Shown: positions 1 to 59,309 of the stretch, piece after piece
Numbering within the stretch: position 1 is the first letter of the stretch
Layout of the letters: every line of letters begins with the position of its first letter
Source of the DNA: Planctomycetota bacterium
Lineage (GTDB): Bacteria > Planctomycetota > UBA8742 > UBA2392
Direction of reading: 5' to 3'
NCBI GenBank assembly: GCA_022071975.1
Contig: JAJVIO010000014.1
Coordinates: 1 to 64,000, forward strand
DNA: 64,000 bases
Program-made: the position numbers and the translations under genes
The notes under the pieces: model-generated
Told to the model about the DNA's origin: nothing
Database searches by the model: none
What the model saw: the letters and a program-made list of their open reading frames with translations, nothing else

Positions 1-178
1 GGCAGGAGGCAGGAGGCAGGAGGCAGGAGGCAGGAGGCAGGAGGCAGGAGGCAGGAGGCAGGAGGCAGGAAGCAGGAGGCAGGACGCAGGAGGCAGGACG
101 CAGGAGGCAGGACGCAGGAGGTAGGAGGCAGGTGGCAGGTGGCAGTTGGCAGGTGGCAGTTAGCAGGTGGCAGGGAAG
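1..178. repeat. GGCAGGA heptamer array (left arm)
   Basis: About 18 to 25 head-to-tail copies of a 7-bp unit, GGCAGGA, nearly perfect from 1 to 70 and decaying (GGCAGGAC, GGTAGGAGGCAGGT, GGCAGTTGGCAGGT) towards 178. It runs directly into the Shine-Dalgarno region of the four-helix-bundle gene. The reverse-complement version of the same unit lies just after that gene at 602-633, so the two arrays face each other across the gene. The array is cut by the window edge. Confidence 0.95.
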
Positions 179-186
179 AGACGATC

Positions 187-579
187 GTGGCCTCCAACGA
201 CGAGAAGGGATTTCGCGGCCTGAAGGTTTGGCAGAAGGGTATGGATGCCGTCGATGCAATCTACGACGTCACGAGGCGGTATCCGCGCGAAGAGCTCTAT
301 GCCCTGACCACGCAAACCAGACGGGCCGCACAGTCGGTGCCCATGAACATCGCCGAAGGGTACCGACGTAAGAAGCATCTGCCGGACTACATGAAGTTCC
401 TCCGCTACGCGGATGGCTCCGCAGCGGAAGTGGAAACTGCGATCGAGATTGCTGAGCGGCAGAGTTACCTGGCACCCGAACTGGCGGCTGGAATCATCGC
501 TCAGTATCAGGAGATTGGACGCATGCTCGGCGGATTGATCCGCAGAATCGAACAAGACGGAGGAGCCAACGAGGACTGA
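187..579 (+). CDS. four-helix-bundle protein, S23/IVP family (TIGR02436-like)
   Basis: About 130 residues, the usual length of this family. Visible hallmarks are an N-terminal GLKVWQKGMD helix, then TTQTRRAAQSVPMNIAEG and a final helix with EIGRMLGGLIRRIE. Family members were first seen inside 23S rRNA intervening sequences and resemble the Avd accessory protein of diversity-generating retroelements; their biochemical role is unknown, though a small basic nucleic-acid-binding helical bundle is likely. I chose GTG at 187 because AGGGAAGAG sits at a good distance upstream, whereas the in-frame ATG at 139 would translate repeat DNA (WQLAGGR). The gene is boxed in by inverted heptamer arms (1-178 and 602-633). 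No reverse transcriptase or rRNA gene is nearby. Confidence 0.85.
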   Translation: MASNDEKGFRGLKVWQKGMDAVDAIYDVTRRYPREELYALTTQTRRAAQSVPMNIAEGYRRKKHLPDYMKFLRYADGSAAEVETAIEIAERQSYLAPELAAGIIAQYQEIGRMLGGLIRRIEQDGGANED

Positions 580-601
580 TCGATTGCAGGAGGTCCATTT
601 G

Positions 602-633
602 CTGCCTCCTGCCTCCAGTCTCCTGCCTCCTGG
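602..633. repeat. heptamer array, reversed (right arm)
   Basis: Units of CTGCCTC/CCTGCCT run for about 32 bp, 22 bp after the stop codon of the four-helix-bundle gene, in the opposite orientation to the array at 1-178. Shorter and more degenerate than the left arm. Confidence 0.85.
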
Positions 634-683
634 CTGTACGATTCTTTGATACTTTTGATGTTCTAACTATTTTTCTTTCATTC

Positions 684-796: not shown

Positions 797-1279
797 ATGG
801 CCAGCATGAAAGTGTTCATGAAGATTGACGGGATGCCGGGCAGCAGCGCGGATGCCAACCACGGCGACTGGTGTGACGTGCGCGGCTTCAGCCACGCCAT
901 GGAATACCCCTTCGACATGCGCGAGAACAAGGGTCGCGGCGAGCCCGTCCACGGCGCTTGCAGCGTGACCAAGGAAATCGACAAGGCCTCGCCCAAGATC
1001 TTCGAAGCGCTGGCCAAGAAGAAGAAGGTCAAGCAGGTCGAGATCGAATTCTGGCGCGACAACCCGAGCGAAGGTGGCAGCGAGAAGTACTTCACCATCC
1101 TCCTCAAGGACTGCCGCGTTGTGAAAGCCCGCCCCTTCATGCCCAGCCAGGGCGAAGGCGCCGCGGACGCCATGCCGCACATGGAAGAGGTCGGTTTCGC
1201 CTACCGCCAGATCGAGTGGACCTGGCTCTCCGGCGGACAGGTGCCCACCACCTTCGACTTCGGCAACCCGGACGCGTAG
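797..1279 (+). CDS. hcp: T6SS tube protein Hcp (TssD)
   Basis: 160 residues, the standard Hcp length. Hcp hexamers stack into the inner tube that carries VgrG and effectors when the contractile sheath fires; it is both structural and secreted. The family pattern is visible: MKIDGMPGSS at the start, the HAMEYPFD segment, a central KEIDKASPKIFEAL helix, then KYFTILLKDCRV and a closing WTWLSGG strand. First gene of the operon, preceded by an AT-rich promoter region and a good ribosome site, and followed by a GC hairpin (1290-1315) that would let hcp be expressed above the downstream genes. No effector domain is fused to it. Confidence 0.96.
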   Translation: MASMKVFMKIDGMPGSSADANHGDWCDVRGFSHAMEYPFDMRENKGRGEPVHGACSVTKEIDKASPKIFEALAKKKKVKQVEIEFWRDNPSEGGSEKYFTILLKDCRVVKARPFMPSQGEGAADAMPHMEEVGFAYRQIEWTWLSGGQVPTTFDFGNPDA

Positions 1280-1289
1280 TCCGCGCCAG

Positions 1290-1315
1290 AGAGGGGGCGG
1301 AACACCGCCCCCTCT
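1290..1315 (+). terminator. GC-rich hairpin after hcp (partial terminator or mRNA stabiliser)
   Basis: GAGGGGGCGG / CCGCCCCCTC arms around an AACA loop, 11 bp with flanks, no T-run. Placed 10 nt after the hcp stop. Because tssE-G lie downstream without an obvious promoter, attenuation or 3'-end protection of hcp mRNA is more likely than full termination. Confidence 0.6.
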
Positions 1316-1322
1316 CCGGCTG

Positions 1323-1455
1323 CTGGAGGCAGGAGGCGGGAAGCAGCAACCGCAACTGCACTTTCTTGGTCCCTTAACTGGAGGCTGGAGGAAGAGTCAG
1401 AACTTGGAGGCAGATTGCTTCTCCTGCCTCCTGCTTCCTGCCTCCTCCCTCCTGA
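1323..1455. repeat. heptamer-arm inverted element, no cargo (hcp-tssE gap)
   Basis: Left arm units GGAGGCAGGAGGCGG (1323-1344) and GGAGGCTGGAGGAAG (1379-1413) face the right arm CTCCTGCCTCCTGCTTCCTG (1420-1455). The centre holds no reading frame. The right arm ends in CCTGAA only 6 nt before the GTG start of tssE, so the element forms the whole translation-initiation region of that gene. Confidence 0.85.
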
Positions 1456-1461
1456 AAAGCC

Positions 1462-1878
1462 GTGTTCCAGAAGCGCACCTTGTTTGAGAGGTTGAAGAAC
1501 CCGGAAGGCACCGCGGCCCGCACCCTGGAAGAAGACACCACGGCGCAACTGCGGTCGATCCTCCGCAACCTCGAGCGCATCCTGAACGCGCGGGTGGGCC
1601 AGGCTCCGGCCCAGATGGACTTCGGCATCCCGTCGCCCAGCGAGATCGCGCAGGGCTACCCGGAGTCTCTGACGACGATGCAGAAGACCATCCGCCAGTG
1701 CATCGAACGCTACGAGCCCAGGCTGCGCGACGTGCAGGTGATGCAGATCGAAAGCGACGACTTCCGGCTGGCCGTGCGCTTCCAGGTGACCGCGCGCCTG
1801 GCCACCACCAAGGAAGGACGCCAGGTCAGCTTTGACACGCTGATGGACCCGTCAGGACACGTGAATCTGAATGCATAG
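1462..1878 (+). CDS. tssE: T6SS baseplate wedge protein TssE (gp25-like)
   Basis: 138 residues with the gp25/GPW fold pattern: a TLFERLKNP N-terminus, a helix RSILRNLERILNAR, the IPSPSEIAQGYPES stretch, TIRQCIERYEPRL, and a final pair of strands (VQVMQIE, LAVRFQVTARL). TssE is a baseplate component related to phage T4 gp25 that helps start sheath assembly. The start is GTG at 1462; no Shine-Dalgarno is visible because the preceding 40 bases are heptamer-repeat DNA. Translation may therefore be leader-independent or weak. Followed by another heptamer element before tssF. Confidence 0.9.
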   Translation: MFQKRTLFERLKNPEGTAARTLEEDTTAQLRSILRNLERILNARVGQAPAQMDFGIPSPSEIAQGYPESLTTMQKTIRQCIERYEPRLRDVQVMQIESDDFRLAVRFQVTARLATTKEGRQVSFDTLMDPSGHVNLNA

Positions 1879-1880
1879 CG

Positions 1881-2030
1881 ACCAGGCGGCAGGCGGCAGG
1901 AGGCAGGAAGCAGGCGAAGCCTGCACTACCTCAGGACTGTGAAACGAAGAGATTGGAGGCAGGACGCAGGCAGCTGGAAACGATTCGGAGGCAGTACCTG
2001 CTTCCTGCATCCTGCCTCCTGCATCCTGAA
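1881..2030. repeat. heptamer-arm inverted element, no cargo (tssE-tssF gap)
   Basis: Left arm ACCAGGCGGCAGGCGGCAGG (from 1881) starts 2 nt after the tssE stop and continues with GGAGGCAGGACGCAGG (1953-1972). The right arm, CCTGCTTCCTGCATCCTGCC and on to 2030, ends with CCTGAA 5 nt before the GTG start of tssF. It is a second insertion of the same family within one operon. Confidence 0.85.
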
Positions 2031-2035
2031 ACAGC

Positions 2036-3775
2036 GTGTTCAACAAGTACTACCAGGACGAGTTGGTTTTCCTGCGCGACATGGGGCGCGAGTTTTCCGC
2101 CGCGAATCCCGAGGCCGCGCGCTTCCTCGCCGAGCCGGGCAGCGACCCGGACGTCGAGCGCATGCTGGAAGGTTTCGCGTTCCTGGCCGCCAAGCTGCGC
2201 CAGAAACTGGATGACGAGCTGCCCGAGTTCACGCACTCGCTGACCGAGATGCTCTGGCCGCATTACCTGCGACCGATCCCCAGCACCACCATCATGCAGT
2301 TCGAGCACGCCAACCGCGACACCGCCGAGCTCAAAACCCTGCCCGCCGGCATCGAGATCGACTCCGTGCCCGTGGACGGCACCCGCTGCCGCTTCCGCAC
2401 CAGCAGCGCGCTCGACCTGCTGCCGCTCGAACTCACCGAGGTCCAGCTGCGCCGTGAGGCCCCGGCCCGCCTGCGCCTGCAGCTCAAGGTGCCCGACAAG
2501 CTGGGCCTGGGGCGCGCCGGCCTCAAAACCCTGCGCCTGCACCTGGCCGGCGAGCCCGCTGTGACCCGCGCCCTGTACGTCTCGCTGCTGCGCCACGTGC
2601 GCCGCGTGGTGGTCAGCAAGGGTGATGACAGCGCGCGCTACGAGCTGCCGGCTTCCGCGATCCGCGCCGTCGGCTTCCGCGAAGACGAGGCCCTGCTGGG
2701 CGGCCCCGGACCCAGCTTCCCCGGCTTCCGCCTGCTGCAGGAGTACTTCACCGCGCCGGCCAAGTTCATGTTCATTGATCTCGAGCGCCTGGACGGCACG
2801 GCGAACTTCGGCCTGGAAAGCCGCTTCACCATAGATTTCGAGTTTGCACGCCTGCCGGACAACATGCCGCCCGTCAGCCGCGCCAACCTGCAGCTGAACT
2901 GCGTGCCCGCCGTGAACCTGTTCAAGCACGACGCCGACCCGGTCCGCCTCCAGCGCGGCCGCACCGAGTACGCCGTGCGCCCCATGGGCGACGACCCGCG
3001 CCATTACGAAGTGCACTCGATCGACCGCGTGTACGGCCTTGAGGTGGGCACGGCGCAGGAGCGCGTCTTCAACCCGCAGTTCCGCCTGGCGCGCAGCGGG
3101 CGCCGCGACGAGCTGTTCTATCACGCGCGCCGCCGCGAGGCCGTGGCCGGCACCGGCAGCGAAATGCTGATCACCTTCCTGGACCCGGAAGACCCCGCGG
3201 CCCGGCCGAACATCGAGACGGTGACGCTCGACCTCACCTGCACCAACGCGCAGCTGCCCAGCCGGCTGGACGCGGGCGACGTGTCGGTGAAAACCGGCAA
3301 CGCGCCGCTGTTCGCGAAGTACCGCAACATCTCGCGCCCCACCGCCAGCGTGCCGCCGCCCCTGAGCGGCGACCTGCACTGGCGGCTGATCGCGCACCTG
3401 TCGCTGAACTACATGTCGCTGCTGAGCGCCGAGGCGCTGCGCAGCGTGATCGGACTCTATAACTTCAGGGCCCGCATTGACCGCCAGACCGAGCAGGCCC
3501 ACGCCAGGCTGCTGGACGGCATCAAGGGCGCCCACGGCGTGCCGAGCTCGATGCTGGTGGACGGCATGCCGGTGCGCGGCCTGGACGTCGAATTGAACGT
3601 AGACGAAGAGCTGCTGGGCGGCGAAGGCGAAACCTTCCTGCTGGGCAGCGTGCTGAACGAATTTTTCGCGCAATACGTGTCGCTGAACGCTTTCAGCAGG
3701 CTCAAGGTGAAGGGCGCGAAACGGGGAGAGGTGTTCCAATGGCCGGCACGGATTGGCAAACGCGCCATCCTGTAA
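2036..3775 (+). CDS. tssF: T6SS baseplate protein TssF (VasA/ImpG)
   Basis: 579 residues, close to the usual length. The N-terminus is diagnostic: YYQDELVFLRDMGREFSAANP, then ERMLEGFAFLAAKLRQKLDD and LTEMLWPHYLRPIPSTTIMQ. TssF joins TssG, TssE and TssK in the wedge that surrounds VgrG and recruits the sheath. GTG start at 2036 abuts heptamer-repeat DNA with no clear ribosome site. The last 37 bp overlap tssG, which implies translational coupling. Confidence 0.95.
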   Translation: MFNKYYQDELVFLRDMGREFSAANPEAARFLAEPGSDPDVERMLEGFAFLAAKLRQKLDDELPEFTHSLTEMLWPHYLRPIPSTTIMQFEHANRDTAELKTLPAGIEIDSVPVDGTRCRFRTSSALDLLPLELTEVQLRREAPARLRLQLKVPDKLGLGRAGLKTLRLHLAGEPAVTRALYVSLLRHVRRVVVSKGDDSARYELPASAIRAVGFREDEALLGGPGPSFPGFRLLQEYFTAPAKFMFIDLERLDGTANFGLESRFTIDFEFARLPDNMPPVSRANLQLNCVPAVNLFKHDADPVRLQRGRTEYAVRPMGDDPRHYEVHSIDRVYGLEVGTAQERVFNPQFRLARSGRRDELFYHARRREAVAGTGSEMLITFLDPEDPAARPNIETVTLDLTCTNAQLPSRLDAGDVSVKTGNAPLFAKYRNISRPTASVPPPLSGDLHWRLIAHLSLNYMSLLSAEALRSVIGLYNFRARIDRQTEQAHARLLDGIKGAHGVPSSMLVDGMPVRGLDVELNVDEELLGGEGETFLLGSVLNEFFAQYVSLNAFSRLKVKGAKRGEVFQWPARIGKRAIL

Positions 3776-4767
3776 CGGAGCTGCTCCAGGACGGGAACCA
3801 GTTCTCGTTCTATGAAGCGATCCGCATGCTTCACGGCCTGCACCGTGACGCGCCCAAGCTCGGCCACCAGGGCCCGCCGGAGCATGAGCGCGTGCGCATC
3901 CGCCCGCTGCTCAGCCTGACCTTCCCGCCCGCCGACATCGCCCGCGTAGAGAAGCTCGAGCAGCCGGACGGCAGCGAGCGCATCCGGCTGGATGTCACCT
4001 TCATGGGCCTGTACGGGGCAAGCAGCCCGCTGCCCAGCTTTTACACAGAAGACCTGATCCGGCTCGAGAACGAAGACAGCCTGCTGCGCGGCTTCCTGGA
4101 CCTGTTTCATCACCGCCTGTTCAGCCTGCTGTTCCGCGTCTGGGAAAAGTACCGCCACACCGTGCAGTACGACGCCGGCGGCAGCGACTACTACTCAAGC
4201 CGCCTGCTCACCATGGTCGGCGCCGCCGCCGAGCTGCTGCCCGAAGACGAAAGCACCCGCCCCGGGCGCCTGCTGGCCTACGCCGGCCTGCTGACCCAGC
4301 AGCCGCGCAGCGCCGCCAGCCTGAATGCTCTGCTGGGCGAGCATTTCCCTGAGGTGCAGGTCGAAATCGACCAGTGCCGCGGGCGCTGGCTCGACATCAG
4401 CCACGGCGAGTTGAACCGCCTGGGCGTGCGCAACAGCGCGCTGGGCCGTGACGTCAGCCTTGGCTCAAAGGTGTATGACTGCGCCGGGAATTTCGGCATC
4501 AACCTCGGGCCCATGGACTTCGACACCTGGGTAGAGTTCCTGCCCGACGGCCGCAACATCGCGCAGCTGCGCGAGCTGACGGACCTGTTCAACGGCGACT
4601 GCCTCACCTATGAAGTCACCCTGCTGCTGCGCGGCGAAACCATGAAACGCGCGCAGCTCTCGAGCAACCACACGCGCCTGGGCTGGTCCAGCTGGCTGGG
4701 CGAAAACGCATCAGAGGACCGCACTGTCACCTTCAAGTTCAAAGGATGGAAACATGGTCGAGGTTGA
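3739..4767 (+). CDS. tssG: T6SS baseplate protein TssG (VasB/ImpH)
   Basis: 342 residues, within the family range. Typical features: N-terminal segment with NQFSFYEAIRMLHGL and RIRPLLSLTFPPADI, the FMGLYGASSPLPSFYTEDL block characteristic of the family, and a C-terminal ending in RLGWSSWLG. TssG clamps the TssF dimer in the baseplate wedge. Starts inside the end of tssF and overlaps the start of clpV by 14 bp, so tssF-tssG-clpV form one tight translational unit. A GGAGAGGTGTTCC-like ribosome site (GGGGAGAGG, 3723-3731) precedes the ATG. Confidence 0.94.
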   Translation: MAGTDWQTRHPVTELLQDGNQFSFYEAIRMLHGLHRDAPKLGHQGPPEHERVRIRPLLSLTFPPADIARVEKLEQPDGSERIRLDVTFMGLYGASSPLPSFYTEDLIRLENEDSLLRGFLDLFHHRLFSLLFRVWEKYRHTVQYDAGGSDYYSSRLLTMVGAAAELLPEDESTRPGRLLAYAGLLTQQPRSAASLNALLGEHFPEVQVEIDQCRGRWLDISHGELNRLGVRNSALGRDVSLGSKVYDCAGNFGINLGPMDFDTWVEFLPDGRNIAQLRELTDLFNGDCLTYEVTLLLRGETMKRAQLSSNHTRLGWSSWLGENASEDRTVTFKFKGWKHGRG

Positions 4768-7522
4768 TCTCAAACGTCTGGTTGGCCGCCTGAACCGCTT
4801 CTGCACCCGCGCGCTGGAAGCCGCGGCGGGCAACTGCGTCTCACGCACCAACTACGAGGTCACGGTTGAGCATCTGCTGCAGGCGCTGCTGGAGGATCCC
4901 AACGCCGACATCCAGCAGGCGCTGCAGAAATTCGAGATCGACCCCGGCCGCGTCAACAAGGCGCTGACCCGCGACCTCGACAACCTCAAGACCGGCAACG
5001 CCGGGCGCCCGGTGTTCAGCCCGCTGCTGACCACCTGGTTCCAGAACGCCTGGCTGATCGCGAGCATCGAGCACAACCAGGCCGAGATCCGCTCCGCCAA
5101 CCTGCTGCAGGCCCTGCTGGCCAACCCGGCGCGCCTCGCCTCGGGCGAGTACATCGACCTGGTCACCGAGGTCCCGCAGGCGGAACTGGCCAAGAACCTG
5201 TCCGAGATCCTCAGCGCCTCGCGCGAAACGGCCGCCGCCGCGGGCGTGGCCGCCAGCCCGGGCGGCATGCCCGGCGCCGAGCCCAGCCGCGAAGGCACTG
5301 CCCTGCAGCGCTTCTGCCAGAACTTCACCGAGCGCGCCCGCGCCGGCGAGCTTGACCCGGTGTTCGGCCGCGACCACGAGATCCGCCAGATGATCGACAT
5401 CCTGGCGCGGCGCCGCAAAAACAACCCGATCTGCGTCGGCGAGCCGGGCGTGGGCAAGAGCGCCGTGGTGGAAGGCCTGGCGATGCGCATCGTGCAGGGC
5501 GACGTTCCCGAGGTGCTGCAGAACTGCGATATCGTGGGCCTCGACATCGGCCTGCTGCAGGCGGGCGCGAGCGTGAAGGGCGAGTTCGAGAAGCGCCTGA
5601 AGGGCGTGATCGACGAGATCAAGGCCAGCCCCAAGCCGCTGATTCTCTTCATTGATGAAGCGCATACGCTGATCGGCGCGGGCGGCGCCGCCGGCACCGG
5701 CGACGCGGGCCAGTTGCTGAAGCCGGCCCTGGCGCGCGGCGAATTGCGCACCGTGGCCGCCACCACCTGGTCCGAATACAAGAAGTACTTCGAAAAAGAC
5801 GCGGCGCTGGCCCGCCGCTTCCAGCTGGTGAAGCTGGATGAGCCCGGGCCAGAGCTCGCCACCACCATGTTGCGCGGCCTGCGCGCCAGCTACGAGAAAG
5901 CCCACAGGGTGGTGATCCGCGACGAGGCCATGGTGGCCGCGGCGCAGCTCGGCTCGCGCTACATCGCGGGGCGACAGCAGCCGGACAAGGGCATCGACCT
6001 GATCGACACCGCCGCCGCGCGCGTGAAGGTGGCGCTGATCAGCAAGCCCGCCGAGCTGCAGGACCTGGAGCGCAGCGTGGAGACCGACCTGCGCACACTG
6101 AACGCGCTGAAGCGCGACCAGGAAACCGGCGGCATCGCCGACCCGGAGCTGATGAAGGAAATCGACCAGCGCATCGCCGCCACGCGCGACAAGGCCAAGG
6201 CCCTGACCGAGCGCTGGCTGAAAGAGCGCGACGCCGCTCACAAGGTAATCGCCATCCGCACCAAGCTGAACGAGCTCGCCGCCAGGGCCGCGGGTGAAAC
6301 AGTGGAAGCAGCAGGGAGCCCCGGCCGTAAGCCCGGGGGCAATGCGAAACAAGAGCCGCAAGCGCAAGCGCGCGGTCCGGAAAGCGCAAAGGAAGCGAAG
6401 CCCGAAGAGCCCGCGATCCAGCTGCCCGACGACCACGACGCTCTCAAGCAGATGTTCGATAAGGAACTCAACGCCCTGCGCGCCATGCAGGGCACCGACC
6501 CGCTGGTTCCCGTGGAAGTCACCAGCGAGGTGGTGGCCAAGGTGGTCGGCGACTGGACCGGCATCCCCGTCGGCAACATGGTCAAGGACCAGGCCGCGCA
6601 GCTGCTGACCATGGAAGGCGAGCTGACCAAGCGTGTAAAGGGCCAGGACCACGTGATGAAGGCCATCGCCACCGGCATCCGCGCCAACAAGGCGGGCCTG
6701 GGCAACCCGCACGCGCCGATCGGCGTGTTCCTGTTCGTCGGCCCCAGCGGCGTCGGCAAGACCGAGACCGCGCTGGCCGTGGCCGACCTGCTTTTCGGCG
6801 GCGAGCGCTTCATGACCACCATCAACATGTCCGAGTACCAGGAAAAGCACACCGTAAGCCGCCTGATCGGCAGCCCGCCCGGTTACGTCGGCTACGGCGA
6901 AGGCGGCCAGCTGACCGAAGCCGTGCGCCAGCGCCCCTACAGCGTGGTGCTGCTGGACGAAGTCGAGAAGGCCGACCTAGAGGTGATGAACCTGTTCTAC
7001 CAGGTGTTCGACAAGGGCATGCTCAACGACGGCGAAGGCCGCGAAATCGACTTCAAGAACACCGTGATCTTCCTGACCAGCAACCTCGCCACGGACATCA
7101 TCACAGAGGCCTGCAGCGACGGCGACCGGCCGGACATGGACGAGCTGGTAGGCATGATCCGCCCGCAGCTGAGCGCGCACTTCAAGCCGGCGCTGCTGGC
7201 GCGCATGAGCATCCTGCCGTTCTACACGATCGACCAGTCGGCGATGAAGATGATCACCGACCTGAAGCTGAACAAGATCAGGCGCCAGCTGCACGACACG
7301 CACCACATGGAGCTGGTGTTCGCGCCCACGGTGACGGACGCCATCGCCGCGCGCTGCACGGAAGTGGAGACGGGTGCGCGCAACATCGACCACATCATCC
7401 GCGGCTCGCTGCTGCCGCAGATGAGCACGCAGTTGCTGCAGAAAATGAGCGAGGGCGACCTGCCGGCGCGGCTGAGCATCGGCATCGCCGACAACGGGTT
7501 GTTCTCGTTCGACTTTGCCTGA
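4754..7522 (+). CDS. clpV: T6SS sheath-disassembly AAA+ ATPase ClpV (TssH)
   Basis: 922 residues. Order: double Clp-N repeats (about 1-160), AAA+ module 1 with Walker A GEPGVGKS (about 229-236) and Walker B LILFIDEAHTLIGAGG, a middle coiled domain, AAA+ module 2 with GPSGVGKTETA (about 663-673) and VVLLDEVEKAD, and a ClpB-type D2 C-domain. ClpV unfolds contracted TssB/TssC sheath so the parts can be reused. Its place behind tssG identifies it as ClpV rather than housekeeping ClpB. A low-complexity stretch, about 520-555 (EAAGSPGRKPGGN, KEAKPEEPA), is an insertion in the middle domain. The first P-loop has Ser in place of the commoner Thr, which is a functional equivalent. Confidence 0.95.
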   Translation: MVEVDLKRLVGRLNRFCTRALEAAAGNCVSRTNYEVTVEHLLQALLEDPNADIQQALQKFEIDPGRVNKALTRDLDNLKTGNAGRPVFSPLLTTWFQNAWLIASIEHNQAEIRSANLLQALLANPARLASGEYIDLVTEVPQAELAKNLSEILSASRETAAAAGVAASPGGMPGAEPSREGTALQRFCQNFTERARAGELDPVFGRDHEIRQMIDILARRRKNNPICVGEPGVGKSAVVEGLAMRIVQGDVPEVLQNCDIVGLDIGLLQAGASVKGEFEKRLKGVIDEIKASPKPLILFIDEAHTLIGAGGAAGTGDAGQLLKPALARGELRTVAATTWSEYKKYFEKDAALARRFQLVKLDEPGPELATTMLRGLRASYEKAHRVVIRDEAMVAAAQLGSRYIAGRQQPDKGIDLIDTAAARVKVALISKPAELQDLERSVETDLRTLNALKRDQETGGIADPELMKEIDQRIAATRDKAKALTERWLKERDAAHKVIAIRTKLNELAARAAGETVEAAGSPGRKPGGNAKQEPQAQARGPESAKEAKPEEPAIQLPDDHDALKQMFDKELNALRAMQGTDPLVPVEVTSEVVAKVVGDWTGIPVGNMVKDQAAQLLTMEGELTKRVKGQDHVMKAIATGIRANKAGLGNPHAPIGVFLFVGPSGVGKTETALAVADLLFGGERFMTTINMSEYQEKHTVSRLIGSPPGYVGYGEGGQLTEAVRQRPYSVVLLDEVEKADLEVMNLFYQVFDKGMLNDGEGREIDFKNTVIFLTSNLATDIITEACSDGDRPDMDELVGMIRPQLSAHFKPALLARMSILPFYTIDQSAMKMITDLKLNKIRRQLHDTHHMELVFAPTVTDAIAARCTEVETGARNIDHIIRGSLLPQMSTQLLQKMSEGDLPARLSIGIADNGLFSFDFA

Positions 7523-9941: not shown

Positions 9942-12212
9942 GTGGAGATCCGCAACCGCACGCCCTATGCCTTCGCGCCCCTGATGGGCCGGGTCAACTT
10001 CCCGGCCCACACGGCCACGCTGACCGTGAAGGCCGGCTTCCGCATCGTGCCGGGCGGCATCGTCGAGCCGCTGGACAAGCAGCCGGACCTCGAGGGCGAC
10101 GTGCCCAGCGCCGCCGCGCGCCCGGAGTGCCTGTACGCCGCCGACCTGGCCCAGTTCAAGCCCAGGGCCGACCTGCTGCTGCGCGCCGTGTGCCACACCC
10201 CGGGCCAGAAGGGCCTGACGGCCTGCAACGTGCGCTTCCGTGTCGGTGATTGGCAGAAAGAGCTGGCGGTGATCGGCAACCGCCATTGGGAGAAGGGCCT
10301 GGTCTTCAGCAAGATGAGCGAGCCCGAGCTGTTCACCCGCGTGGAGCTGACCTGGGGCAATGCCTTCGGCGGCGAGAAGTTCGCATTAAACCCGGCCGGC
10401 AAGGGCCGCAAGGACGGCCTGCTGCCGAACGTCGAGTATCCCGACGAGCTGATCAAGAGCCCCGGCAACCAGCCCACGCCCGCCGGCTTCGGCCCCATTG
10501 ACCGCACCTGGAAGCAGCGCAACAGCAAGCTCGGCACCTGCGACAAGAAGTGGCTGAAAGAGCGCTGGCCGGCCTTCCCCAAGGACTTCGACTGGACGCA
10601 CTTCAACGCGGCCCCCGAAGACCAGCAGCTGGAAGGCTTCCTGCGCGGCGACGAGGAAATCGAGCTGCTGAACATGCACCCGCAGCATGCGCGGCTCACC
10701 ACCCGGCTGCCCGGCCTGCGCGTGCGCGTGCTGCTGCGCGAGGGCGAGCCGGCCGCCGTGCGCGAAGTGCCCATGAACCTCGACACCCTGTACGTGGACG
10801 CCGAGAAGCTTGAGCTGATCCTGACCTGGCGCGGCGTCGCGAACGTAAGCGACTCCGATTGGGAAGAGTGCCGCGAAATCCTGATCGCCCAGGAACCGCT
10901 CGGCGAAAACCGCGAGCTGGAGCAGCTGCTGCCCCTGTTCGAGGAGCCCGGCGAAGAGGCCGAAGTCGAGGAAGCCGAAGAGCCCGAAGTCCCGCGCGAG
11001 CAGAAGATCAAGATCGTCGAAGACCAGATCAAGCGCGCCGAGCAGCTCGCCCTCGAGCAGGAACGCGCCGTCTTCGCCCAGGTGCAGAAACAGCTGGGCG
11101 CCGATGAGGCCAAAAAACTGATCGGCGGCGCCAAGGCCGAGGTCTCCAGCCTCGAGGCCCTGGTCAACAAGTACATGAGCGGCCAGGTTGCCAAGGACGC
11201 GGTCAAGGGCTCCGACTTCAGCCCGGCCGCGCTGGACCCGCGCAAGGACCCGGAGCTGGCCAAAGCCATCAAGGCGCTGGACAAGCCGGTGCCGCAGCCG
11301 CCCGCCGACAAGACCGGCCTGAGCGCCATGCTGAAATCCGGCGAGGCCGGCGGCGGCGACTTCAGCGGCGCGGACGCATCGGGCGAAGACCTGAGCGGCG
11401 CCGACCTGCGCGACACCTACTTCAACGGCGCCAACCTGGCCGGCGCGAAGCTGGCGGGCGCGAAGCTGAACGGCGCGTCCCTGATGGACGCCAACCTGGA
11501 AGGCGCGGACCTGTCCGAGGCCGACCTGTCCGAGGCCGACCTCACCGGCGCCAACCTGGCCGGCGCGAAGCTGACCGGCGCGATCCTGAACGAAGCCGTG
11601 CTGATCAACGCCCAGGCGCCGAACGCGAGCTTCGACGGCGCCCAGGGCGCATCGGTGCTGATGCTCGGCCTGAAGGCCGCGGGCGCCAGCTTCAAGGGCG
11701 CCGCGCTTGCCGAGGCCGTGTTCAGCAACGCCACGCTCGAGCAGGCCGACTTCAGCGGCGCGCAGCTCAAGGACGCCGCCTTTGACGGCGTGCTGGGCGC
11801 CGGCGCGAATTTCGAGGCCGCACAACTGGCCGGCTTCCGCGGTGGCGAGGCTTCGGACTTCACGGGCGCGAACTTCCAGAAGGCGCAGGCCGAGGGTTGC
11901 GTGTTCGAGCGCAGCACGCTGATTGAGGCCGACTTCCGTGGCGCCAACCTGAAGGCCGCCCAGTTCATGTTCAGCGACCTGACCGGCGCCAAGCTGTACG
12001 GCGCCGACCTGGCCGGCAGCATGCTGCGCAAGGCCAAGCTGGCCAAGGCCGAAGCCGGCAATGCCAACTTCTTCCAGGCGCAGCTGGAGGCCGCCGACCT
12101 CAGCAACGCCTCGCTGGTTGCCAGCAATTTCTACGAAGCCGAGTTCCTGGACGCGAAAACCGAAGGCGCTGACTTCGCGGGCGCCAACCTGAAAATGACG
12201 AAGCTGGCCTGA
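9942..12212 (+). CDS. DUF2169 + pentapeptide-repeat T6SS accessory protein
   Basis: 756 residues in three parts. Residues about 1-300 are DUF2169 (RNRTPYAFAPLMGRVNF, LVVKA-type strands, ELTWGNAFGGEKF, NPAGKG), a domain found next to vgrG and proposed to be a loading adaptor. Residues about 320-420 are acidic then helical (EEPGEEAEVEEAEEPE; IKRAEQLALEQERAVFAQVQ), likely coiled coil. Residues about 465-750 are pentapeptide repeats of the A(D/N)LxG type, predicted to form a right-handed square beta-helix. GTG start 10 nt after vgrG with AAGGAAG upstream. Its last base overlaps the next ATG. Adaptor function is inferred from context. Confidence 0.85.
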   Translation: MEIRNRTPYAFAPLMGRVNFPAHTATLTVKAGFRIVPGGIVEPLDKQPDLEGDVPSAAARPECLYAADLAQFKPRADLLLRAVCHTPGQKGLTACNVRFRVGDWQKELAVIGNRHWEKGLVFSKMSEPELFTRVELTWGNAFGGEKFALNPAGKGRKDGLLPNVEYPDELIKSPGNQPTPAGFGPIDRTWKQRNSKLGTCDKKWLKERWPAFPKDFDWTHFNAAPEDQQLEGFLRGDEEIELLNMHPQHARLTTRLPGLRVRVLLREGEPAAVREVPMNLDTLYVDAEKLELILTWRGVANVSDSDWEECREILIAQEPLGENRELEQLLPLFEEPGEEAEVEEAEEPEVPREQKIKIVEDQIKRAEQLALEQERAVFAQVQKQLGADEAKKLIGGAKAEVSSLEALVNKYMSGQVAKDAVKGSDFSPAALDPRKDPELAKAIKALDKPVPQPPADKTGLSAMLKSGEAGGGDFSGADASGEDLSGADLRDTYFNGANLAGAKLAGAKLNGASLMDANLEGADLSEADLSEADLTGANLAGAKLTGAILNEAVLINAQAPNASFDGAQGASVLMLGLKAAGASFKGAALAEAVFSNATLEQADFSGAQLKDAAFDGVLGAGANFEAAQLAGFRGGEASDFTGANFQKAQAEGCVFERSTLIEADFRGANLKAAQFMFSDLTGAKLYGADLAGSMLRKAKLAKAEAGNANFFQAQLEAADLSNASLVASNFYEAEFLDAKTEGADFAGANLKMTKLA

Positions 12213-14128
12213 TGACACCCCTGACCCAACAACAGCTGCTGCAGAAAGCCAAAGCCGGTGAGCCCCTGCAGGATTGCCTGCTCGAGGGCGGCGACCTCGG
12301 CGGCGCCGACCTGCACGGCCTGAACCTCGCGGGCCTGACCCTGGTGGGCGTGCGCCTGGCGGGCGCCAACCTGGCGGGCGCGGACCTGTCGGGCCTGCGT
12401 GCCAGCAATTGCGACTTCACCCAGGCGAAGCTGGATGACGCGAACCTGTCCGGCGCGATCATCGACCCGGCCTGCAGGCTCGACGGCGCCAGCCTGCTGC
12501 GCGCCAACCTGTCCGAGGCGGGCGCGGCGTTTGCCTCGCTGCAGCGCGCCGACCTGCGCGACGCCAACCTGGGCAACTGCATGCTGAACGGCGCCAACCT
12601 GGCCGCCGCGAAACTGGCCGATTGCAACGCCGAGGGCGCGGGCTTCGACGGCGCTGACCTTTCGGGCACGGACTTCAGCGGCGCCAAGCTGCGCGATGCC
12701 TCGCTGATCAAGGCCGCACTCGAGGGCGCGAACTTCAGCCGCGCGGACCTGACCGGCGCCCTGCTGGCCTACGCAGACCTGAAGCAAGCCAACTTCGAGG
12801 GCTCGCTGCTGGAAGGCGTGCTGGCCGACAACGCGGACCTGGCCGGTGTTTCCGGCCTGCCCGCCGTCGTGCACGCCTCGTTCCGCGACGCCAACCTGGC
12901 GGGCGTGGATTTCTCCGGCCGTGACATCGCCGGCAGCGCCTTCGTGCGCGCGAACCTGTCGGGTGCGAAGCTGAAGGATGTGAAGGCCGAAGGGGCGGAT
13001 TTCAGCAACACCGACCTCGCGGGCGTCGAGCTCACGGGCGGCGAGTTCCCCCACTGCCTGTTCACCGAGGCGAAGCTGGCCGGCGCGAAGCTGGCGGGCT
13101 GCCCCCTGCCCGGTGCCGCCTTCGACGGCTGCGACCTGGCGGGCCAGGATTTCAGCGGCTGCGACCTGTCGGGCGCGATTTTCACCGGCGCCACGGTAAA
13201 GGGTTTCGTGCTGCGCGACGCCACGCTGCACGGCGCGCTGTTCGATGAACTGGAGTTGGAAGGCTTCGACTTCAGCGGCCTCGACCTGCACGAGGCGGAC
13301 TTCGCCGGCTCAAGGCTGAAGGGCGCGCGCTTCAAGGGCGCCAACCTGGAAGGCTGCGACTTCGCCCAGGCCGACGCCGCCAACGCCGACTTCAGCGGCG
13401 CGAACCTGAAGGCCGCCACCTTCATCCAGGCCGACCTGACCGGCGCGCGTTTTAACGACGCGCAGCTGGATGAAACCGTGCTGTCCGAGGCGAAGCTGGC
13501 TGGCGCGTCGTTCCGGGGTGCCGCGCTGAAGGGCGTCAGCCTGGCCGAAACCGACCTGCGCGAAGTGGGCATCGCGGGCGGCAACTTCAGCCAGTGCGAG
13601 TTGCGCAAGGCCAACCTGAACGGCCTGAACCTCGAGGGCGCCAGCTTCCCGTTGTGCGACTTCGAAGAGGCCGACCTGGCCGGCGTCAACTTCGCGGGCG
13701 GCGACCTGACCCAGGCCGCCTTCAAGGCCGCGAAGCTGGAGAAGACCAACTTCCGCGGCGCCAAGCTGGTGGGCGCCAGCTTCGAGAACGCGAACGCCGC
13801 CGGCGCCGTGTTCTCGGGCGCGAACCTGCACATGGCTGCGTTCCCCGGCGCCAACGCCGAAGGCGCGCTGTTCGACGGCGCGGACATCCGCGAGACGTTC
13901 CTCGATAAGCTGAACGCGCGGCAGGCGAAGTTCAACAAGGCCGTCGCCCACTACGCCATGTTCATACACGCCAACCTGCAACTGGCCGACTTCAGCGGCG
14001 CCGACCTGCTGGGGGCGGACCTGCACGGCGCCCTGGAAGACGGCGCGCGCTGGGACAAGGCCAACCTGAAGCAGGTCAAACGCACCGATGCCGACAAGCT
14101 AGAGGCCGAAAACTGGAAGCCCAAGTAG
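12212..14128 (+). CDS. giant pentapeptide-repeat protein in T6SS tip module
   Basis: 638 residues, almost all written in a five-residue rhythm (A-D/N-L-x-G, A-x-F-x-G) from about residue 25 to 620, with a short N-terminal helix (TQQQLLQKAKAGEPLQ). A run this long predicts a beta-helix rod more than 100 A long. The central cysteines (GCDLAGQDFSGCDLSG) punctuate the repeats. Overlaps the DUF2169 gene by one base (TGATG) and is followed 14 bp later by the DUF3540 gene. Similar repeat proteins sit beside DUF2169/DUF3540/DUF4150 genes in other T6SS clusters; whether they are cargo, scaffold or immunity is not known. No catalytic domain is visible. Confidence 0.88.
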   Translation: MTPLTQQQLLQKAKAGEPLQDCLLEGGDLGGADLHGLNLAGLTLVGVRLAGANLAGADLSGLRASNCDFTQAKLDDANLSGAIIDPACRLDGASLLRANLSEAGAAFASLQRADLRDANLGNCMLNGANLAAAKLADCNAEGAGFDGADLSGTDFSGAKLRDASLIKAALEGANFSRADLTGALLAYADLKQANFEGSLLEGVLADNADLAGVSGLPAVVHASFRDANLAGVDFSGRDIAGSAFVRANLSGAKLKDVKAEGADFSNTDLAGVELTGGEFPHCLFTEAKLAGAKLAGCPLPGAAFDGCDLAGQDFSGCDLSGAIFTGATVKGFVLRDATLHGALFDELELEGFDFSGLDLHEADFAGSRLKGARFKGANLEGCDFAQADAANADFSGANLKAATFIQADLTGARFNDAQLDETVLSEAKLAGASFRGAALKGVSLAETDLREVGIAGGNFSQCELRKANLNGLNLEGASFPLCDFEEADLAGVNFAGGDLTQAAFKAAKLEKTNFRGAKLVGASFENANAAGAVFSGANLHMAAFPGANAEGALFDGADIRETFLDKLNARQAKFNKAVAHYAMFIHANLQLADFSGADLLGADLHGALEDGARWDKANLKQVKRTDADKLEAENWKPK

Positions 14129-15104: not shown

Positions 15105-15142
15105 ACGGCGGGGCGCGCAAACGTACCGTTCTGATCCCGGAA

Positions 15143-15171
15143 AGGGACTGCTCGCGCCGCGGGCAGTCCCT
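15143..15171 (+). terminator. hairpin ending the T6SS operon
   Basis: GGGACTGC / GCAGTCCC stem with flanking A-T pairs and a GC loop, about 40 nt after the DUF4150 stop. There is no T-run after it. Position at the boundary between the T6SS operon and the serine dehydratase gene supports termination. Confidence 0.6.
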
Positions 15172-15202
15172 GCATTCGAGAACCCTTAGGCGTTCCGAAG
15201 AC

Positions 15203-15234
15203 GGGGACAGACCCCGACTTCGGGGACAGTCCCC
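15203..15234. repeat. two GGGGACAGTCCCC palindromes upstream of serine dehydratase
   Basis: Units at 15203-15215 (one mismatch) and 15222-15234 (perfect), separated by 6 bp. The second ends 3 nt before the start codon of the next gene. The same 13-bp palindrome occurs as inverted pairs at 59074-59103 and 59278-59309. Confidence 0.85.
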
Positions 15235-15237
15235 ACC

Positions 15238-28920: not shown

Positions 28921-29101
28921 TCAGGAGGCAGTTTTCAGGAGGCAGGAGGCAGGATGCAGGAGGCAGGAGGCAGGAGGCAGAAGGCAGGAGGCAGGCGGCA
29001 GGAAGTAGGAAGCGGACGATAGTTCGCAGGGGAAGTCATCAGAATGCCCGCAGGGGCGTCAGCTTTTCCTGCATCCTGCATCCAGCCTCCTGCCTCCTGA
29101 A
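28921..29101. repeat. heptamer-arm inverted element, no cargo (uppS-GNAT gap)
   Basis: Left arm of about 92 bp begins TCAGGAGGCAG and runs through more than ten GGCAGGA units to 29012; the centre is 54 bp without a gene; the right arm (29067-29101) reads CCTGCATCCTGCATCC and on, ending CTGCCTCCTGA. The tips TCAGGAGGCAG and CTGCCTCCTGA are exact reverse complements. The right tip ends 1-2 nt from the stop codon of the GNAT gene. Confidence 0.9.
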
Positions 29102-40602: not shown

Positions 40603-40653
40603 AGCAACCAGGTGATTCGGCCGTTGTTGCGCCATCCAGGCGTTCTGCCTGGT

Positions 40654-40736
40654 GCGAGAGGTCAGAGGCCGAAGGTCAGAGGCCAGGGCAAACCACCTGA
40701 AGCGGCTTCCCTGTCCTCTGACCTCTAACCTCTCGC
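40654..40736. repeat. CTCTGAC-type heptamer inverted element (no cargo)
   Basis: Left arm GCGAGAGGTCAGAGG (to 40684) and right arm CCTCTGACCTCTAACCTCTCGC in reverse (40715-40736) share tips GCGAGAGGT/ACCTCTCGC across a 30-bp centre. Lies in the convergent gap between the TauE-like gene and the RND pump gene. Confidence 0.88.
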
Positions 40737-40808
40737 AATGCCGACCGGGTTGCGGAGTCGCTACGACGACCTCCGGGTTCTCCATTCAACGCGCCTCGAA
40801 AGCGCGGT

Positions 40809-59074: not shown

Positions 59075-59309
59075 GGACTGTCCCCGAAGTTGGGGACTGT
59101 CCCTGTAGTCGAAGCAGAACCGGCGGGGGTAGCTGCTTCAACTAGCGAATTACCAATAACCAATTACCAATTACCAATTTTCAATGGCGCTCGAATGCGA
59201 GGTCATTGGTAATTGAAAATTGGTTATTGGTAATTTGCTGTTTAAACCGTGCGGAACGACAACTCCGGCTCGACTACGGGGACAGTCCCCAACTGCGGGG
59301 ACAGTCCCC
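59074..59309. repeat. composite inverted element: GGGGACTGTCCCC arms around AATTACC heptamer arms
   Basis: Outer left palindromes at 59074-59085 and 59092-59103, outer right at 59278-59290 and 59297-59309, with conserved flank GTAGTCG/CGACTAC making the two halves inverted copies over about 45 bp. Inside, AATTACCAATAACCAATTAC (59148-59185) faces its reverse (59205-59236), 7-bp unit ACCAATT, with an 18-bp centre. No gene; AT-rich core in a GC-rich genome. Confidence 0.9.

Follow-up and report, generated by a model that had tools for sequence, protein, structure and literature searches.

Inverted arrays of short repeats around S23 genes suggest a widespread family of bacterial mobile elements with gene-less derivatives

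Proteins of the S23 family ('23S rRNA intervening sequence protein') are small, and in very many genomes their annotation reads 'four helix bundle protein', with no function assigned. Mobility of the intervening sequence (IVS) of 23S rRNA genes, which encodes such a protein, has been proposed since 1990, and the origin of the IVS has been open since the same year. The IVS of Coxiella burnetii is reported to have a terminal stem of 28 bp and, upstream of its S23 open reading frame, GACAGAT heptamers in tandem; the same paper regards it as a selfish element and cites earlier proposals of mobility (PMC4990558). Arrays of seven-nucleotide units have also been described apart from the IVS. Xanthomonas genomes contain inverted GGGAATC pairs (PMC4692102), and in the Nostoc trnL intron two classes of 7-nt units replace each other at one site (PMC4476775).

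The window analysed here is a stretch of 64,000 nucleotides from a member of the Planctomycetota, the first position of which is the end of contig C15 in a 4.24-Mb draft genome (G000). The S23-type gene and the inverted GGCAGGA arrays that bracket it were located as given in the preliminary description of this DNA (Table 1), the outer end of the left array being out of view beyond the contig end. The open reading frame lies in frame 1, with a stop at 579 and a likely GTG start at 187. Its product matched PF05635 in a Pfam profile search (E=3e-32; 111 bits against a cut-off of 33.8) and also TIGR02436 (108 bits; cut-off 24). The element is situated upstream of hcp and not inside a 23S rRNA gene. 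Its left array is unusually long, with ∼25 copies compared to the usual 4–5 per arm. Two GGCAGGA units, with up to 3 mismatches allowed, are matched 76 times in the window versus 14±4 times in shuffled sequences, and none of 100 shuffles reached the observed number. The arrays are covered by no Rfam family, the only Rfam matches in the window being two tRNAs.

Table 1. Arms, S23 gene and gene-less elements located in the window.
Feature	Position	Strand	Basis or remark
Left arm: tandem GGCAGGA array, ∼25 copies	1..178	+	cut by contig end
S23 gene (23S_rRNA_IVP, PF05635), GTG start inferred	187..579	+	ORF, Pfam, fold match to 2gsc, 2rld, Avd
Right arm: inverted GGCAGGA array, 5 units	599..635	-	repeat search and inverted-pair detector
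Gene-less element, GGCAGGA arms, between hcp and tssE	1323..1456		congeners: other unit or nothing at site
Gene-less element, GGCAGGA arms, between tssE and tssF	1883..2030		full S23 element there in G006 and G014, nothing in G003
Gene-less element, GGCGTGA unit	23399..23468		matches arms of S23 element L010, same genome
Gene-less element, GGCAGGA arms	28921..29101		absent at orthologous G003 site
Gene-less element, AGAGGTC unit	40653..40737		de novo inverted-pair detection
Gene-less element, AATTACC unit, 26-nt loop	59144..59239		matches arms of S23 element L018, same genome

Other features of the window include type VI secretion genes at 797–7522 (hcp, a gp25-like tssE, tssF, a further T6SS-like gene and a gene for a ClpV-like ATPase), 15-base tandem coding repeats at 11389–13189 (ACCTGACCGGCGCCA-like), which probably belong to a pentapeptide-repeat protein, and GGGGACAGTCCCC palindromes at 59273–59309 and 15141–15235. 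The latter are probably REP sequences, and the one at 15141 is absent in the related genome G002. Elsewhere in G000, Y1_Tnp genes and REP palindromes constitute a second, separate gene-plus-palindrome system; 15 of the 28 Y1_Tnp (RAYT-like) matches in this genome were read (L269–L283), and most of them are flanked by inverted REP-type palindromes, e.g. GGGGGCGCAAGCCCCC.

The arms are not peculiar to this locus. Eleven S23 genes are present in G000; of 60 related genomes, 33 have S23 genes, in up to 25 copies. Inverted arms around the same-phylum S23 matches scored above the 95th percentile of random positions in 73 of 82 cases, a few of the 82 being duplicate loci; the period is 7 in both arms of nearly all of these pairs and 8 in a few. 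Across bacteria, strong arms were present at 61 of 80 S23 loci versus 7 of 289 shifted controls, some of the latter being themselves strong period-7 pairs, at least one of them probably from a second S23 element in L152. The 80 loci come from named genomes of Planctomycetota, Pseudomonadota, Bacteroidota, Bacillota, Verrucomicrobiota, Acidobacteriota, Nitrospirota, Chloroflexota, Campylobacterota, Patescibacteria and others, and more than a dozen bacterial phyla show the layout. Of the 61 strong pairs, 60 have arms of equal period (7 in 48, 8 in 11 and 9 in one). Inverted arms also flank all ten S23 genes examined from cyanobacterial plasmids and all 13 from viral contigs, the weakest of these pairs being near the control level. 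Arms and S23 genes are therefore statistically linked, and what had been described as a local element belongs to a family spread over many phyla. Strong arms were missing at 19 of the 80 cross-phylum loci, and none were detected in the tested copies of a weak-scoring S23 subgroup (e.g. L042 in G032 and L046 in G020, genomes with 20–25 weak-scoring S23 genes).

From outer arm end to outer arm end the elements measure ∼480 bp (median; 428–598 bp from the 5th to the 95th percentile) and encode S23 alone. No transposase gene is present in the full element, in agreement with the preliminary description; S23, there regarded as cargo, is better viewed as the sole gene of the element. Nor is the element defined by GGCAGGA, since each S23 element has a repeat unit of its own, of 7 bases, sometimes 8 and once 9. 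Read from the outside inwards, the arms are G-rich in 98 of 110 elements; several members of a divergent S23 subfamily (L016, L017, L018, L041 and L065) have CCAAT-type arms, which are C-rich in this orientation. The best common core of the units is AG (G 94%, A 60%), the G signal coming partly from the rotation of units to fit; the core is nevertheless real, because column-permuted units are less informative (2.5 versus 2.95 bits). Five consecutive cores are the commonest arrangement, found in 104 of 220 arms of period 7 (modal array length 31 nt) and in 14 of 26 arms of period 8. The similarity between left and right arms goes beyond the common unit and holds at individual positions, so that the two can pair. 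The left array ends at a median of 14 nt 5' of the S23 start codon, and in 66 of 106 elements within −8 to 20 nt of it.

Units are the more alike the more similar their S23 proteins are (Mantel r 0.38 within the phylum and 0.24 for all elements, in neither case matched by any of 999 permutations). In the cross-phylum set by itself, which has few close pairs, the correlation is not significant. When two S23 proteins are at least 65% identical, the unit is nearly always common to both. This correlation is compatible with recognition of the unit by the protein, and co-inheritance of arms and gene alone could also yield it.

All three gene-less GGCAGGA arm pairs previously reported from the window proved to be real. 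The three further pairs with other units (Table 1) had been missed in the first reading and were recovered with a de novo detector of inverted period-7/8 pairs, which found none in shuffled sequence. Genome G000 has 30 arm pairs in 464 kb, two of the window pairs in this count being cross-pairings of neighbouring elements, and S23 lies inside five of the 30; G002 has 23 pairs in 480 kb, four of them with S23 inside. No arm pairs appeared in second-order Markov sequence. In both G000 and G002, the units of gene-less pairs agree with the arms of that genome's own S23 elements better than any of 500 random sets drawn from other genera or phyla. Gene-less copies thus share their ends with a gene-carrying element of the same genome, which is the general hallmark of MITEs, and the earlier interpretation as a full element plus gene-less derivatives is supported. 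Among six congeners, AATTACC arrays number 90 in G000, 55 in G002, 14 in G005 and none in the other three, and S23 genes with AATTACC arms were found in G000 and G002 only. As exceptions, no cognate S23 was found for the 14 arrays of G005 (an 80% complete draft) or for the GGCAGGA arrays of G002 (an 86% complete draft). Gene-less hairpins often sit directly 3' of stop codons.

Presence of the elements varies clearly between orthologous sites, at which filled, gene-less and empty versions were all encountered, although insertion and excision cannot always be told apart. Neither of the two outcomes named beforehand as contradicting the preliminary interpretation, arms unlinked to S23 genes and arms invariant in presence among relatives, was obtained. 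Plasmid C of Trichormus variabilis carries a 428-bp S23 element that is missing from at least six plasmids ∼97.5% identical to it. The empty version of the site reads AAAAAGTAATTAACAAAT, and TAA stands on both sides of the filled version; the same site holds a decayed S23 fragment and one arm in Nostoc C052 and a gene-less arm pair with a 19-nt loop in Brasilonema. Element L013 of G000 is missing in G001, G002 and G003, the G002 flank being 96% identical on one side. At the site of L010 the element is present in G000, G001 and G002; G003, G004 and G005 have an empty site there, and G052 carries an element that is missing in G021. What the relatives have between tssE and tssF ranges from a complete S23 element through gene-less pairs, with at least six different units, to nothing, and at one further site a full element in G002 corresponds to an internally deleted copy in G000. 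At L303 (G003:C153, ∼230–310) there is an inverted ACAGAGGACACAGAG hairpin, possibly a gene-less copy of period 8, where G002 has an S23 element.

Further plasmid sites show presence and absence, one of them between cmr2 and cmr3; the variation was also seen at the traM and cas6–cas4 sites, with no clean junction there. Several S23 elements reside inside CRISPR operons of cyanobacterial plasmids (L336, L340 and L366): in the type I-D operons of Anabaena sp. 90 and Pseudanabaena the element separates cas6 from cas4, and in the type III-B operon of Picosynechococcus PCC 7003 it separates cmr2 from cmr3.

Neither the element ends nor the empty sites revealed a target duplication of fixed length, and no consistent junction rule was found across the junctions compared. 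A 3-bp TAA is seen on both sides at one precise site, no duplication or small deletions elsewhere, and some sites have lost ∼8–40 target bases. In these respects the junctions appear to differ from those of a typical DDE transposon.

The structure model of the window S23 protein (pLDDT 94) is a four-helix bundle with 2gsc as the best PDB match (TM 0.84). The fold also matches 2rld as well as Avd, both alone (4dwl) and in the ribonucleoprotein of a diversity-generating retroelement, or DGR (8ube and 8ub8), supporting the relationship to Avd that had been noted before. The solved S23 structures 2gsc and 2rld contain five chains each. Among 131 S23 sequences, Gln30 and Glu68 (numbering of the window domain) are invariant and Glu44 is 97% conserved; these residues may be structural or catalytic, which leaves S23 itself a possible enzyme.

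Five chains on the one hand and five cores per arm on the other are suggestive of a pentameric S23 that binds its own array. In the mechanism that we propose, S23 would form a ring of five subunits, each contacting one core of the array. A single strand would be the probable substrate of the ring, given that the cores occur at spacings of 7, 8 or 9, changes that on B-DNA would rotate them out of phase. It would mark or bring together both ends of the element, and would mobilise its own element and, in trans, the gene-less copies with the same unit. Both the binding of S23 to the arms and the cutting and joining chemistry of the element are steps that we infer. The earlier suggestion that S23 might be the trans-acting factor agrees with the correlation of the gene with arms and units, and it is to this correlation that the support extends. 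On balance, we consider it probable that these loci represent a family of mobile elements whose S23 ring recognises the arms and mobilises gene-less copies in trans. The wider proposal, in which the elements form a bacteria-wide class of transposable elements, with an S23 pentamer devoid of a known catalytic domain that recognises, in single-stranded form, the five cores of an array specific to the element and moves its own and gene-less copies, and with the 23S rRNA IVS and the cyanobacterial heptamer repeats as members, is put forward more tentatively, at slightly less than even chances.

The mover might instead be an unrelated recombinase of the host or of another element, such as a Y1/RAYT transposase, with S23 as a passenger or only a regulator. 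S23 indeed has no known catalytic domain, and Y1_Tnp matches are plentiful, with 28 in G000 and some in 43 of the 60 relatives. However, all 18 Y1 genes examined end in REP palindromes and none lies in heptamer arms, the complete genome G052 has an S23 element and neither a Y1 nor a reverse transcriptase match, and S23 is the one gene that is constant inside the arms across phyla. We regard an unrelated recombinase as unlikely. Considerably less probable is an Avd-like retroelement, in which S23 would partner a reverse transcriptase encoded elsewhere and the element would move through RNA. The fold shared with Avd would suit such a partnership, and the element RNA could fold on its arms; yet armed S23 elements are present in G052 and G031 (100% and 97% complete, respectively), where no reverse transcriptase match was found, and no reverse transcriptase was seen adjoining S23 in the annotated plasmid loci.

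It is equally conceivable that the system is not primarily mobile, S23 binding arrays of five cores in its leader RNA as well as in other transcripts, with the gene-less hairpins serving as terminators or regulon sites. The nearness of the left array to the start codon and the position of many hairpins directly after stop codons speak for such a role. Nevertheless, single sites whose flanks are near-identical either have or lack the whole arm-gene-arm block, and from one congener to another the unit at a given site gives way to a different one, which is unexpected for a fixed regulon; we accordingly give this explanation a low probability. Regulation and mobility are not mutually exclusive, and S23 of a mobile element could also repress its own translation, given where the left array ends. 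That the arrays are ordinary heptamer repeats which came to lie near S23 genes by chance or slippage is hardly credible. Heptamer repeats are common in bacteria (PMC4692102), but the shifted-position and Markov controls contradict this explanation, as does the finding that, in many phyla, S23 is flanked by a pair of inverted arms whose unit is specific to the element.

Should mobilisation by S23 be correct, one family would account for S23 genes, for the IVS and for much of the heptamer repeat content that has been puzzling in bacterial genomes; a type of mobile element without a known recombinase would be added to those described. It would further be predicted that each S23 binds its own unit, that five cores are optimal and that gene-less copies move only where the cognate S23 is present. 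No mobile element is known to us in which array ends of this kind go together with a protein outside the known recombinases; the IVS would be an already described special case. In a literature search of partial journal coverage, the Coxiella paper was the sole one to connect S23 with heptamer arms, and no paper joined the IVS, the Xanthomonas pairs and the Nostoc intron classes.

Among the known systems, REPINs and their RAYTs are similar in that gene-less palindromic copies are apparently mobilised in trans by a single-copy gene, with no target duplication of fixed length. The S23 elements differ from them in having no Y1/HUH transposase and in ending in multi-unit arrays, and in G000 RAYTs coexist with REPs of their own. 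MITEs of insertion sequences are likewise short gene-less elements with the terminal inverted repeats of a gene-carrying element, but the S23 parent has no DDE transposase and its units vary between elements. Avd of diversity-generating retroelements shares with S23 the fold and the five-chain assembly, whereas beside S23 we saw neither a reverse transcriptase nor a template or variable repeat. TRAP, the trp RNA-binding attenuation protein, is a ring that reads regularly spaced NAG triplets in RNA, one per subunit; as a ring protein with regularly spaced cores it offers an analogy, and only that, for the reading of a five-core array, being an 11-mer beta ring with a fold unrelated to S23. The heptanucleotide repeats of cyanobacteria and Xanthomonas are inverted 7-nt arrays as well, for which the link to S23 was not made (PMC4692102, PMC4476775); we infer that the GGGAATC pairs and the Nostoc trnL intron classes, by their appearance, are gene-less relatives of S23 elements. 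The 23S rRNA IVS resembles the present elements in that an S23 open reading frame lies between inverted or complementary termini. In contrast to the IVS, which resides inside 23S rRNA, the elements described here are located between protein genes, are multi-copy, are accompanied by gene-less derivatives and have each a unit of their own.
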